Positions 38,316-46,096 of a stretch of 53,378 bases of DNA are shown here, piece after piece. The notes beneath the pieces were generated by a model. It saw only the letters and a list, made by a program, of their open reading frames with translations, did no database searches and was not told the origin of the DNA. Numbering within the stretch: position 1 is the first letter of the stretch; each line of letters opens with the position of its first letter. The translations under genes were made by a program, and so were the position numbers. Source of the DNA: Actinomycetes bacterium (GTDB taxonomy: Bacteria; Actinomycetota; Acidimicrobiia; Acidimicrobiales; Ilumatobacteraceae). The stretch is taken from contig JANYCT010000019.1 of the NCBI GenBank assembly GCA_025360105.1, positions 1-53,378 on the forward strand, in the 5' to 3' direction.

Positions 38316-38332
38316 TCTGACGCTTCGTCAGA
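38316..38332. promoter_or_regulatory. Inverted-repeat operator, copy 1 (TCTGAC-N5-GTCAGA)
   Basis: TCTGACGCTTCGTCAGA, with arms that actually extend to seven bases (TCTGACG/CGTCAGA), in the SDR/thiolase divergent gap. The flanks aa...aacc are shared with copy 2 at 46080-46096. TetR-type regulators commonly bind sites of this size; a tetR gene lies 1.7 kb away. Confidence 0.75.
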
Positions 38333-38412
38333 AACCATCGTCAAAAACTATCGCCGCGGTCGAAGGCCTTCGGCTCTCGCACACAAACGCCACTCACGAA
38401 AGAAGATCACTC

Positions 38413-39585
38413 ATGGGGAACCCAGTCATCGTCGAAGCAGCCCGCACGGCCATCGGCAAGCGCAACGGCTACTTCGCGAACCTGCATGCCACCAAGTTGC
38501 TCGGTGCCGCACAGGTCGGCGTGATGGAGCGGGCCGGCATCGACCCCTCAATCGTGGGCCAGGTCGTCGGCGGCTGCGTGACCCAGGCCGGCGAGCAGGG
38601 CAGCAACGTGGCCCGCAACGCATGGCTGCAAGCCAAGCTGCCCTACACCGTCGCAGCCACCACCGTTGACACGCAGTGCGGCAGCAGCCAGCAGGCGAAC
38701 CACATGATCCACAACATGATCCACGCCGGCGTCATCGATGTCGGCATGGCGTGCGGCGTAGAGCACATGAGCGCAGTGTGGCTCGGCGCCGCGGTGCCTC
38801 AGGTCGATGGCGTATTCGTGAACGGTCGCTCGAAGGCCGACGATTTTCCATGGGACATGCCCGATCAGTTCGGTGCCGCAGAACGCATCGCGCAGCTCCG
38901 CGGCATCACCCGCGAAGACGTTGACTTCCTCGGCCTGATTTCGCAGCAAAAGGCCATCCGCGCCACCGAGGAAGGCCGCTTCGACAGCCAGATCATTCCC
39001 GTCACCGTTGCCGACGCCGACGGCAACGACGTCACCATCACCCGCGATGGTGGGCTGCGCGAAACCACTGCCGAGAAGCTCGCCGCGCTCAAGCCCGTTG
39101 CCCCCGACGGTATCCACACCGCTGGTAACAGCAGTCAGATCAGCGATGGCGCGGCAGCGGTGCTGTGGATGAGCGAAGAGCGCGCCAAGGCCGAGGGTCT
39201 TCGCCCACGGGCGCGCATCCTCGCCCAGTGCGTGGTCGGCAGCGATCCGTATTACCACCTCGATGGCCCGGTCGACGCCACCCGCAAGGTGCTCGCCGAC
39301 GCCGGCATGACCATGGACGACATCGACCTCGTCGAGATCAACGAAGCGTTTGCATCGGTGGTGCTCAGCTGGGCGCAGGTGCATGGCGTTTCACGCGAGG
39401 ACCTGATGAACAAGGTCAACGTGAACGGCGGCGCGATTGCGCTCGGACATCCGGTTGGTTCAACGGGCAGCAGACTGATCACCACAGCGCTGCATGAGAT
39501 GGAGCGCACCGGGAAAGAGATCGCCCTCGTTACGATGTGTTGCGGTGGTGCCATCGCTACTGGCACGATCCTCCAGCGGTTGTAG
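38413..39585 (+). CDS. Thiolase (acetyl-CoA acetyltransferase / 3-ketoacyl-CoA thiolase)
   Basis: A 390-residue thiolase. The nucleophilic Cys is C89 ([11 protein letters not shown]), with H346 in [11 protein letters not shown] and the acid/base Cys near 376 ([10 protein letters not shown]). The QCGSSQQA variant and PWDMPDQFG region recall actinobacterial FadA5/FadA6-type thiolases of steroid or branched-acyl side-chain catabolism rather than PHB thiolases, but the substrate is not fixed by sequence reading. It cleaves 3-ketoacyl-CoA. First gene of a thiolase-cupin-tetR unit, downstream of the shared palindrome. Confidence 0.92.
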
Positions 39586-39594
39586 GTTGCAAGG

Positions 39595-40059
39595 ATGTCA
39601 AACACTCACCTTGAGCTCCCCATTGGTCACGCCACCGAGGCCGACTCACCCTGGGTCGACATTCCCGGAGGCGGCCTACGCCTGGTGCATGCTGACATCG
39701 CAGCAGGCATCTGGGTGGTCGCGAACCGGTTCGAACCCGGCATGGCTGTGCAACGCCATCGCCACACGGGGCCCGTCTTTGCGTGGACCACATCGGGCTG
39801 CTGGATGTATGCCGAGTACGGCACTCGATACGAGGCAGGAAGCTATGTGCACGAGCCGGCTGGCTCGGTGCACACGCTGGTGGTGCCCGAGGACAACACC
39901 GAGACCACCGAGGTGTTCTTCGTCATCCACGGGGCCAACCTGAACCTCGACGACGATGACAACATTGTGTCGATCACCGACGCCGGGAGCATCGCTCAGG
40001 CGTACAAGATGCTCTGCACGATGCAGGGCAAGCAGCCACCCGCATTCGTCGGGGCGTAA
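39595..40059 (+). CDS. Cupin-domain protein, 2,4'-dihydroxyacetophenone dioxygenase-like
   Basis: A 154-residue single cupin. Motif 1 is VQRHRHTGPVFAWTTSGCW (about 53-71) with metal His residues; motif 2 is GSYVHEPAGSVHTLVV with further His. The family (ChrR/DAD-type cupins) includes 2,4'-dihydroxyacetophenone dioxygenase, a C-C bond cleaving Fe enzyme, but many members are uncharacterised. Starts 9 bp after the thiolase stop and ends 10 bp before the tetR start, so it is co-transcribed. Confidence 0.85.
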   Translation: MSNTHLELPIGHATEADSPWVDIPGGGLRLVHADIAAGIWVVANRFEPGMAVQRHRHTGPVFAWTTSGCWMYAEYGTRYEAGSYVHEPAGSVHTLVVPEDNTETTEVFFVIHGANLNLDDDDNIVSITDAGSIAQAYKMLCTMQGKQPPAFVGA

Positions 40060-40069
40060 GGTTGCGGCC

Positions 40070-44419: not shown

Positions 44420-44453
44420 CGCGTGAGTCTCGCGCGGCTGGGCCGGGCGGCGA

Positions 44454-45230
44454 TCACGGAACCCAGTTACCTGACTCGTCGCGATGCCATCCACGCGCCG
44501 CGTCGGAGCCACCATCGACGTGCACGGTCGTGCCGGTGATGTATCGGCTCGCCGACGACGCGAGGAACACCGCGGGACCGCAGATGTCGTCGCTGGTACC
44601 CCAACCGAGAGCAAGCTTCTTGCCGTAGTCACCCTCGCCCACCAACAAGCCGGCATCACCGGGCGTGGGGAGACCATCGGGTGCAATGGTATTGACCCGG
44701 ATACCGCTGGGACTCAGCTCGAGCGCGAGCGTGCGGCTGAGGTGTTCGACCGCGGCCTTCATCGCACCGTAGATACCGAATCCGGGTGCAGCGCGGTAGG
44801 CCTCGACGGAGGTGATGTTGATGATCGAACCGCCGGTCGACATTTTCGGCACACACGCGCGAACGAAGTTGGTGACACTCGTGAAGTTCTCGTCGACGAC
44901 GGAGCGTTGGCCCTTGTCGCTCGCGTCGAGGAACGCACCGTGGAAGGTGCCACCGGCGTTGTTGACCAACACGTCGATGCGCTCGAGGCCGCCGACCCAC
45001 TCGGTGACGGCGGCGGTGTCGCGCACGTCGAGCAACCCTGAGACCACGGTGGCGCCCATTGCCTGAGCGTCGGCAACCGTGTGGGCAAGTTCGTCGACCT
45101 TGCGGTCGCACAGGGCGAGGTTCGCACCGTACTGCGCAAACGCAAGTGCCATCGAACGCCCAAGACCCACTGCGGCGCCGGTGATCAGCGCCACCTTGCC
45201 GTCGAGTCGGAATGCGTCGGGAGCAAGCAT
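44454..45230 (-). CDS. SDR-family oxidoreductase
   Basis: A 258-residue classical SDR: GAAVGLGRSMALAFA cofactor loop, NNAGGTFHGAF, INITSVEAYRAAPGFGIYGAMK with the catalytic Ser and Y-x3-K, and a C-terminal ITGTTVHVDGGSDAA. It probably acts on a hydroxyacyl or alcohol intermediate next to the enoyl-CoA hydratase, whose gene ends 9 bp upstream; these two make a hydration/dehydrogenation pair. Confidence 0.92.
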   Translation of the reverse strand: MLAPDAFRLDGKVALITGAAVGLGRSMALAFAQYGANLALCDRKVDELAHTVADAQAMGATVVSGLLDVRDTAAVTEWVGGLERIDVLVNNAGGTFHGAFLDASDKGQRSVVDENFTSVTNFVRACVPKMSTGGSIINITSVEAYRAAPGFGIYGAMKAAVEHLSRTLALELSPSGIRVNTIAPDGLPTPGDAGLLVGEGDYGKKLALGWGTSDDICGPAVFLASSASRYITGTTVHVDGGSDAARGWHRDESGNWVP

Positions 45231-45239
45231 GCGGCAGTC

Positions 45240-46034
45240 CTATCTCAGACGAGGGTCGATACGGCGACCGGAGGCAAACGTGGCCTGCCCCTCGGCGAGG
45301 GCCTCGGCCTGATTGCCCAGCGTCACGAGATGGGGCGCCATCGCAAGCGCCTGGGCACGGCCCATTTCGCGAGCCGCCCACAACGACCGCAGCGTGCCCT
45401 GCACCGCGGCGGCGGGTTGCGATGCAATCGCTTGGGCGATGGTGTTCGCAGTGGCCAGTAGATCGGCCGCGGGAACAACGTCCTGCACGAAACCGATCTG
45501 GTGGGCGCGCTGCGCGGTCATGCGTTCGTGATTGCCCATGAGCGCGAGTCGGCAGAGTTCGCCGAACGGCATCTGCCCGTACAGCAGGATCGGCTCGAAC
45601 GAGGCGGCCATGCCGTAGGTGGTATGGGGGTCGAAGAAGGTGGCGTGCTCGGCAGCCACGATGGTTTCACACTCCCCCAAAAGGTAGAAGGCCCCCCCAC
45701 ACGCCATGCCGTTCACGGCTGCGATGACCGGCTTCCACAGCCCGGCGGTCTTGGGCCCGAGTAGCATGCCGGGATCGTCGATCATGAACGGTGAATCCGG
45801 CTGAGGCACCGACCACGAGCGATCGATACCGGTACAGAACGCCTTGTCGCCCTCGCCGGTGAGCACAATGGCGCGGATGCTGTCATCGAACCGCAGCGCA
45901 CGCCAGAGGCCCTGCAGTTCGTTGGCCAAGGTCTCGTTGAACGCGTTGTGCCGGTCGGGGCGATTCAGCGTGACCCGTAAGACACGATCATCGATCTGGC
46001 ACAACAGCGCCTTGTACTCAGTTGGGACACCCAC
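45240..46034 (-). CDS. Enoyl-CoA hydratase/isomerase family protein
   Basis: A 264-residue crotonase-fold protein: RVTLNRPDRHNAFN, GEGDKAFCTGID for the first oxyanion-hole segment, and AAVNGMACGGAFYLLGECE for the second. The usual catalytic Glu pair is not clearly placed (FFDPHTTYGMAAS lacks the standard Glu164 context), so hydratase, isomerase or hydrolase activity is open. GTG start at 46034. Divergent from the amidohydrolase gene with palindrome copy 2 between them. Confidence 0.88.
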   Translation of the reverse strand: MGVPTEYKALLCQIDDRVLRVTLNRPDRHNAFNETLANELQGLWRALRFDDSIRAIVLTGEGDKAFCTGIDRSWSVPQPDSPFMIDDPGMLLGPKTAGLWKPVIAAVNGMACGGAFYLLGECETIVAAEHATFFDPHTTYGMAASFEPILLYGQMPFGELCRLALMGNHERMTAQRAHQIGFVQDVVPAADLLATANTIAQAIASQPAAAVQGTLRSLWAAREMGRAQALAMAPHLVTLGNQAEALAEGQATFASGRRIDPRLR

Positions 46035-46079
46035 GAAACGACCCCCGAAAAACCTTGTTTGCGCCAGTGGACGCTCGAA

Positions 46080-46096
46080 TCTGACACACCGTCAGA
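46080..46096. promoter_or_regulatory. Inverted-repeat operator, copy 2 (TCTGAC-N5-GTCAGA)
   Basis: TCTGACACACCGTCAGA, identical in both arms to copy 1 at 38316-38332 and sharing the flanks aa...aacc. It lies between the divergent enoyl-CoA hydratase and amidohydrolase genes. A TACAGT at 46106-46111 is 7 bp before the amidohydrolase ATG, a likely -10 of a leaderless transcript. Confidence 0.75.

Follow-up and report, generated by a model that had tools for sequence, protein, structure and literature searches.

The window analysed here comprises 53,378 nucleotides of contig JANYCT010000019.1 (GenBank assembly GCA_025360105.1) from an actinomycete of the family Ilumatobacteraceae, and carries two exact copies of the inverted repeat TCTGAC-N5-GTCAGA, each between divergent genes. 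These two palindromes are members of a genome-wide operator set, and we consider it probable that the operator belongs to an EthR-like TetR repressor encoded outside the window, at positions 557-1195 of contig C15 (the C15 TetR), which switches steroid-breakdown genes. The computed basis comprises the motif itself, its enrichment and position, conserved site-gene pairs, near-perfect co-occurrence with the C15 TetR, the EthR-like predicted fold of an ortholog, and the absence from the genome that contains the window (G000) of any match to KstR or KstR2. We infer that the C15 TetR binds this DNA directly, represses transcription and responds to a ligand.

In the mechanism we propose, a dimer of the C15 TetR would bind gWATCTGACGnnnCGTCAGATWc near gene starts and block transcription, in many cases for both genes of a divergent pair; the operators sit where a bound repressor would block the start of transcription. 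TetR proteins usually release DNA upon ligand binding. Here, a steroid-derived coenzyme A (CoA) thioester or a steroidal acid may bind the C-terminal domain and cause the repressor to leave the DNA, and release would switch on side-chain and C/D-ring genes, a LivK-type ATP-binding cassette (ABC) uptake system and other oxidoreductases together. Our first choice of ligand, by analogy, would be a steroid-derived CoA ester, because KstR2 is reported to respond to the CoA ester of methylhexahydroindanedione propionate (HIP) (PMC5380842).

The palindrome and its distribution

Both window copies are free of mismatches. Operator 1 (TCTGACGCTTCGTCAGA, 38316-38332) lies in the divergent gap between a short-chain dehydrogenase/reductase (SDR) gene and a thiolase gene, 43 bp upstream of a plausible SDR ATG (38272, minus strand) and 80 bp upstream of the thiolase ATG (38413). 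Operator 2 (TCTGACACACCGTCAGA, 46080-46096) lies in the enoyl-CoA hydratase/amidohydrolase divergent gap, 45 bp upstream of the hydratase start (46034, minus strand) and 22 bp upstream of the amidohydrolase ATG (46119). A first-pass annotation made from the sequence had described these two copies, matching flanks (aa...aacc) and no third intergenic copy in the window; the flanks proved to be real and part of a longer palindrome, and no third copy appeared at up to two mismatches. Exact copies were likewise absent from dinucleotide shuffles of the window (n = 100 shuffles). The two matches at two or fewer mismatches are no more than chance would give (mean 2.42), and the three extra matches at three mismatches are fewer than the chance expectation; only exactness is significant inside the window.

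Across G000 (3,892,346 bases in 105 contigs, 97% complete), TCTGAC-N5-GTCAGA occurs in 16 exact copies versus none for a reversed control, and in 27 sites versus two when one mismatch is allowed. Together with the window shuffles, these counts rule out a chance origin of the palindrome. All 16 sites lie 1-80 bp upstream of at least one predicted start codon, many of them between divergent genes; the genome scan that the first-pass annotation had proposed thus returned 16 promoter-proximal sites, at genes that look like steroid side-chain and C/D-ring catabolism. Five of the 11 one-mismatch sites (C4:4453, C15:3135, C15:9329, C61:5109 and C74:7297) carry a transition and retain the purine...pyrimidine (R...Y) edges of the spacer. 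We judged these five likely to be real, and the operator set in G000 therefore comprises at least 16 places, and perhaps about 21 with the one-mismatch sites of the same form.

The logo of 126 distinct sites, taken from all loci gathered to that point, reads gWATCTGACGnnnCGTCAGATWc, with G (85%) or A (12%) at the spacer edge and A (66%) or T (28%) at the first flanking position. The N5 pattern puts no constraint on positions 6 and 10 or on the flanks; these are conserved and symmetric. The spacer edges were free in the patterns used for G000 and for a 61-genome set, and some of the 126 logo sites came from the R...Y pattern of a 396-genome scan; all 16 G000 sites, found by the N5 pattern, carry R and Y at the spacer edges. 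The site centre consists of three variable bases, and flank conservation ends about 3 bp out. TAnnnT follows the operator at 7-10 bp in 8 of 25 gene-side orientations and at 0 or 3 bp in four, with none within 22 bp in the other 13 (counts made without a control). We suggest that CTGACR of the left half-site may double as a -35 box.

The 61-genome set comprised nine genomes of the window's genus and 52 others. All nine genus members carry the motif in 12-18 copies each, and the 52 others divide into 12 with two or more copies, seven with one and 33 with none; the reversed control is zero in all 61. We compared 60 site regions from nine other genomes (all sites of G007, G016, G033, G032, G038, G041 and G083, four of 11 of G054, and five of six of G184) with the genes at the G000 sites. 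For 40 of the 60 sites, the gene start at the site belongs to a homolog of a G000 site-linked gene (tblastn E ≤ 1e-25), versus 4.6% of random positions in the same regions, and a panel cut to 22 site-flanking proteins recovered the same 40. By genome, the counts are 10/14 (G007), 8/11 (G016), 5/7 (G033), 5/5 (G032), 3/7 (G038), 4/4 (G041), 3/4 (G054), 0/3 (G083) and 2/5 (G184). Among the targets seen, the amidohydrolase of operator 2 is conserved most widely, with a homolog starting 12-40 bp from a site in G007, G033, G032, G038, G041 and G054, and the SDR/EchA20-like gap holds an operator in three of the nine genomes sampled (G016, G032 and G041). A gene for an SOS response-associated peptidase (SRAP) and an amidohydrolase gene flank one divergent operator gap at L022:8768-10778 (contig C34), at L200 and also in G007.

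The candidate repressor

TetR_N matched 17 proteins in G000 (E ≤ 0.001), two of which are encoded within a few kb of sites: the TetR in the window (C95:40070) and the C15 TetR. Contig C15 carries three exact and two one-mismatch sites. Orthologs of the C15 TetR (E of 7e-31 or better) are well separated from the next matches (2.5e-11), and outside the genus they occur in 11 of the 12 genomes with two or more sites versus two of the 40 others (p = 1.5e-8). The co-occurrence comparison took in the C15 TetR, the window TetR, KshA, KstR and KstR2.

We also scanned an even sample of the phylum (396 genomes) for the R...Y motif and for C15-family matches at E ≤ 1e-20. The motif occurs in 29 genomes (reversed control in two), a C15-family match in 29, and both in 24; each of the 20 multi-site genomes (at least two sites) has a match. 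Only a paralogue, with the recognition helix SHGAFYLYF instead of PATFYQYF, is present in G123 (multi-site, 62% complete) and in G070 (no sites), so the strict count of multi-site genomes with a true ortholog is 19 of 20. From Acidimicrobiia to Streptomyces-like genomes, the PATFYQYF helix of the C15 TetR is nearly unchanged while the pair of regulator and site persists. Within a Streptomyces-like genus of the sample (f52/g91), the C15-type TetR is present in 11 of 11 genomes and sites in eight of 11, and eight TetR regions match named Streptomyces at 81-87% DNA identity over 0.7-3.2 kb. Among 80 named loci with a C15-type TetR, 26 hold 33 sites (control 0), and those with both include metagenome-assembled genomes (MAGs) titled Myxococcota, Deltaproteobacteria and Pseudomonadales. 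Four MAG records titled Bifidobacterium breve (L121, L122, L130 and L151) encode a C15-type TetR with 45-61% identity to the G000 protein, like acidimicrobial MAGs, and their titles look wrong.

Of 117 C15-type TetR genes, seven have an operator in the 300 bp upstream when one mismatch is allowed, and three have an exact one; the reversed control has no match in 391 kb upstream of TetR genes. Within 3.5 kb upstream, 17 of the 48 TetR genes with enough sequence have one (one mismatch allowed; control 0), and at several loci the operator stands ~3.1 kb upstream, as if heading a gene run that ends in the TetR gene. Such placement is what autoregulation would look like. The TetR gene directly follows an SDR gene at L217 and L268 (both G016) and at L264 (G032), and the G016 pair looks autoregulated because an operator lies about 11 bp before the SDR gene. 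At G055:C4:732-1983, a KstR-like gene stands beside a C15-type TetR gene on the same strand.

The C15 TetR matches PF00440 (TetR_N; 26.3 bits, cut-off 24) and PF19352 (TetR_C_38; 70.5 bits, cut-off 23.9); for PF21313 (EthR_C), the score of 20.7 bits falls short of the cut-off of 27, and identity to EthR is 20-22%. Searched against the PDB, a profile of 22 C15 orthologs places EthR first, at full length (3.3e-12). The model of the L114 ortholog, which is 79% identical, has a mean predicted local distance difference test score (pLDDT) of 93.8 and nine helices in an all-helical TetR fold, and TetR-family chains top both structure lists. EthR is closest to this model by Foldseek (4.3e-7) and by VIA-align (Z 18.9, root-mean-square deviation 2.5 over 187 residues, 20% identity; next other protein Z 16.0). 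Chains of KstR or KstR2 are absent from the best 60 of 126 PDB profile matches and from the best 50 VIA-align matches. The C15 TetR thus appears EthR-like in sequence and in modelled fold.

Control by KstR or KstR2 was rejected for G000, where neither protein has a match at E ≤ 1e-12 and no KstR2-type motif lies near the 16 sites: the KstR2 operator AnCAAGnnCTTGnT matches the 16 site regions with two mismatches at best (background mean 3.1). The KstR motif is TNNAACNNGTTNNA; it occurs with one mismatch at 2 of the 16 site regions, versus a background fraction of 0.049.

Genes behind the operators

The first-pass annotation had read the two window gene groups as one regulon for a CoA-ester pathway. 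This idea held, although the regulon is much larger than two groups and its pathway narrows to the steroid type: by sequence, the gene set at the sites looks like steroid side-chain (FadA5, FadE26-type) and C/D-ring (HIP; ipdA/ipdB with echA20- and ipdC-like genes) catabolism. In G000, a FadE26-like dehydrogenase at a site matches PDB 4x28 (E = 5e-145), with a second dehydrogenase behind it, and sites also adjoin a PRK07798 acyl-CoA synthetase (692.9 bits, cut-off 543) and a protein that resembles ketoacyl synthases and carries an OB domain of the ChsH2 type. On contig C38, an SDR gene (PRK07856) diverges across an operator from an enoyl-CoA hydratase gene (PRK07938, presumably EchA20), which is followed by IpdA-like (best PDB match 6con, E = 3.7e-99), IpdB-like (best PDB match 6co6, E = 1.4e-77) and FabK-like genes. 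We take 4x28 to be FadE26/ChsE4 and 6co6 and 6con to be IpdAB. The C38 order, SDR / echA20-ipdA-ipdB-ipdC, matches the KstR2 regulon gene table of PMC5380842, which describes IpdC as FabK-like.

Other genes at exact G000 sites encode a cytochrome P450, a CaiB-type CoA transferase, an aldehyde dehydrogenase, an isochorismatase, an old-yellow-enzyme type reductase, a luciferase-like monooxygenase, amidohydrolases and a Rieske oxygenase, and a molybdopterin oxidoreductase gene lies at a one-mismatch site. The gene for the Rieske ring-hydroxylating oxygenase, on contig C38 (L023:3302-4459, minus strand), has its ATG 1 bp from the operator, and the nearest solved protein is carnitine monooxygenase. 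A luciferase-like gene is present on contig C15 and an SDR gene on contig C46. A further exact site adjoins a LivK-type binding protein gene, with an ABC permease and ATPase behind it. LivK-type binding proteins adjoin the operator in G000, at L016:9951-14522 (contig C9), and in several other genomes, at L202, L219, L221, L233, L241 and L249; such genes beside operators suggest uptake of a soluble steroid acid.

Within the window, the gene divergent from the thiolase encodes an SDR (37448-38272, minus strand; start codon presumed). The thiolase (38413-39585, plus strand) is a FadA5-like steroid 3-ketoacyl-CoA thiolase (615.5 bits, cut-off 515; PDB 4ubv, E = 5e-143) and is followed on the same strand by a Cupin_7 protein (39595-40059) and the window TetR (40070-40729). 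On the minus-strand side of operator 2, the enoyl-CoA hydratase family protein (45240-46034) has a second SDR behind it (44454-45230, minus strand). The plus-strand side begins with the amidohydrolase-type protein (46119-47327), which has no NCBIfam match and is named from its first-pass label and its homology to site-linked Amidohydro_2 proteins. Behind it, all on the plus strand, run a zinc-type alcohol dehydrogenase (47441-48544), a probable acyl-CoA synthetase named from sequence (48558-50051; start presumed), another acyl-CoA synthetase (50039-51619), an SDR-like protein named from its N-terminal sequence (51616-52365) and an acyl-CoA dehydrogenase cut by the window end (52369-53376).

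Alternatives and known systems

Several observations weigh against control of a steroid regulon by the C15 TetR. No operator is present in the 557 bp between the edge of contig C15 and the TetR gene in G000, where the upstream neighbour is cut by the contig end, and 26 of the 43 TetR genes with 5 kb of upstream DNA have no operator there. G040 has three sites and no C15 TetR ortholog, and in the phylum sample of 396 genomes five single-site genomes lack a TetR match. Conversely, G047, G060, G070, G109 and the Streptomyces-like G224, G383 and G418 have a TetR match and no R...Y site; the 11-20 kb around the TetR genes of these seven also lack one-mismatch sites, and the G070 match is the paralogue. 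Twenty of the 60 site regions in relatives, including all three of G083, have no panel homolog at the site, and by co-occurrence alone a regulator looks no different from an enzyme that is inherited together with the pathway. As to the pathway, we rejected FadD3 (731 bits, cut-off 657) as a direct target in G000, where its likely start lies 0.6-0.9 kb from the nearest operator, on C89, with other open frames between; a FadD3 homolog in G085 (58%) starts about 40 bp after a site. KshA (PF19298) had no match at E ≤ 0.001 in G000 and was dropped as a regulon part, which leaves a complete steroid pathway, ring A/B step included, unproven; within the genus it has no match in G001, G006, G007 and G008 and strong matches in G004 and G005. 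Finally, KstR-like proteins occur in the genus members G003, G004 and G005 and in several order-level relatives, and weaker KstR2-like proteins (28-38% identity) in G002, G004 and G007, which limits any replacement of these regulators to G000 rather than the whole genus.

The TetR between the two window sites, the candidate regulator of the first-pass annotation, is very improbable as the protein that binds the palindrome. Its gene comes third, after those for the thiolase and the cupin, in the run behind operator 1 (gaps about 10 bp), it is present in 9 of 9 genus genomes, and at E < 1e-25 it matches 4 of the 12 non-genus genomes with two or more sites versus 1 of the 40 others (p = 0.008; 7/12 versus 6/40 at a looser E < 1e-15). 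The correlation with its orthologues that the annotation had looked to therefore exists weakly, but eight of the 12 multi-site genomes lack a match at E < 1e-25, and G032 (five sites) and G055 (two sites) have none at E ≤ 0.001. We rejected it as the regulator on this co-occurrence across genomes, which is weaker than that of the C15 TetR; it is probably a regulon member rather than the main regulator, and a secondary regulatory role is possible because it is kept in all nine genus genomes. Somewhat less remote, though still improbable, is that another regulator binds the palindrome and the C15 TetR is merely co-inherited with the pathway. Any gene always inherited with the regulon would give the same co-occurrence, and G040 has three sites and no ortholog. 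Against this stand the operators within 300 bp upstream of the TetR gene (7 of 117 cases, control 0) and the near-invariant PATFYQYF helix. Perfect inverted repeats could also be hairpins, terminators or remains of mobile repeats, which we regard as extremely improbable here: the sites stand just before starts and between divergent genes, their three-base centre varies, conservation of their flanks ends after about 3 bp, and their presence tracks a DNA-binding protein.

A more serious alternative, though still an unlikely one, keeps the operator and the C15 TetR and has the pathway degrade another cyclic or branched acid, for example a terpenoid, with related enzymes. The missing KshA of G000 favours it, as do the amidohydrolases and luciferase-like monooxygenases at the sites, which to our knowledge do not belong to the standard cholesterol pathway. 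Streptomyces-like genomes retain the TetR together with some of the sites, and the steroid pathway is reported in only two of 57 Streptomyces genomes (PMC4810484). Against this, the best matches of the FadA5, FadE26-like and IpdA-/IpdB-like proteins are steroid enzymes by large margins, and the SDR / echA20-ipdABC order is kept.

Taking the C15 TetR as the repressor of a steroid-type regulon, its protein and DNA code most likely differ from those known from mycobacteria. We found no publication describing this operator, or giving TetR_C_38 such a role, in the open-access literature searched; this is most likely a new operator-regulator pair for a steroid-type regulon, TetR-controlled steroid catabolism itself being already known. 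More tentatively, and with rather less than even confidence, we propose a so far undescribed regulator class of Acidimicrobiia, Streptomyces-like genomes and some MAGs, in which an EthR-like TetR, acting at a 17-21 bp operator that hardly varies, would in G000 be one switch replacing both KstR and KstR2, and in which KshA-less bacteria would scavenge partly degraded steroids (such as HIP) through operator-linked LivK-type ABC import. If this is true, EthR may descend from sensors of steroid or lipid acyl-CoA esters. Actinobacterial steroid catabolism has been described through KstR and KstR2, and in these environmental actinobacteria genes of such kinds are linked to another repressor and DNA code, so that the rewiring of one regulon becomes testable. 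Scanning a genome for TCTGACRNNNYGTCAGA also has a practical use: it yields candidates for steroid-type catabolic genes, for transporters and for enzymes (amidohydrolases, luciferase-like monooxygenases) whose connection would not emerge from homology by itself.

Among known systems, the KstR regulon (sterol side chain, rings A/B) shares with the present one a TetR-type control of side-chain genes, fadA5 and fadE26 being KstR targets. KstR is a different protein, however, and in G000 one operator is common to side-chain and C/D-ring genes. The KstR2 regulon of mycobacteria and Rhodococcus (HIP, C/D-ring) is likewise of the TetR type, with a short palindrome in divergent gaps near start codons (PMC3068626, PMC5380842), and the mycobacterial KstR2 site occupies the same SDR/echA20-ipdA-ipdB-ipdC gap (PMC3068626). 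Its operator is AnCAAGnnCTTGnT as opposed to TCTGACGnnnCGTCAGA here, and three sites per genome are reported for it (PMC3068626) versus 16 in G000. EthR of Mycobacterium tuberculosis is the best solved relative of the C15 TetR by profile and by fold. EthR controls ethA; PMC4482099 calls the physiological role of EthR unknown and describes for it a larger, more complex motif that is no classical palindrome, in contrast to the strict short palindrome and large catabolic regulon found here.

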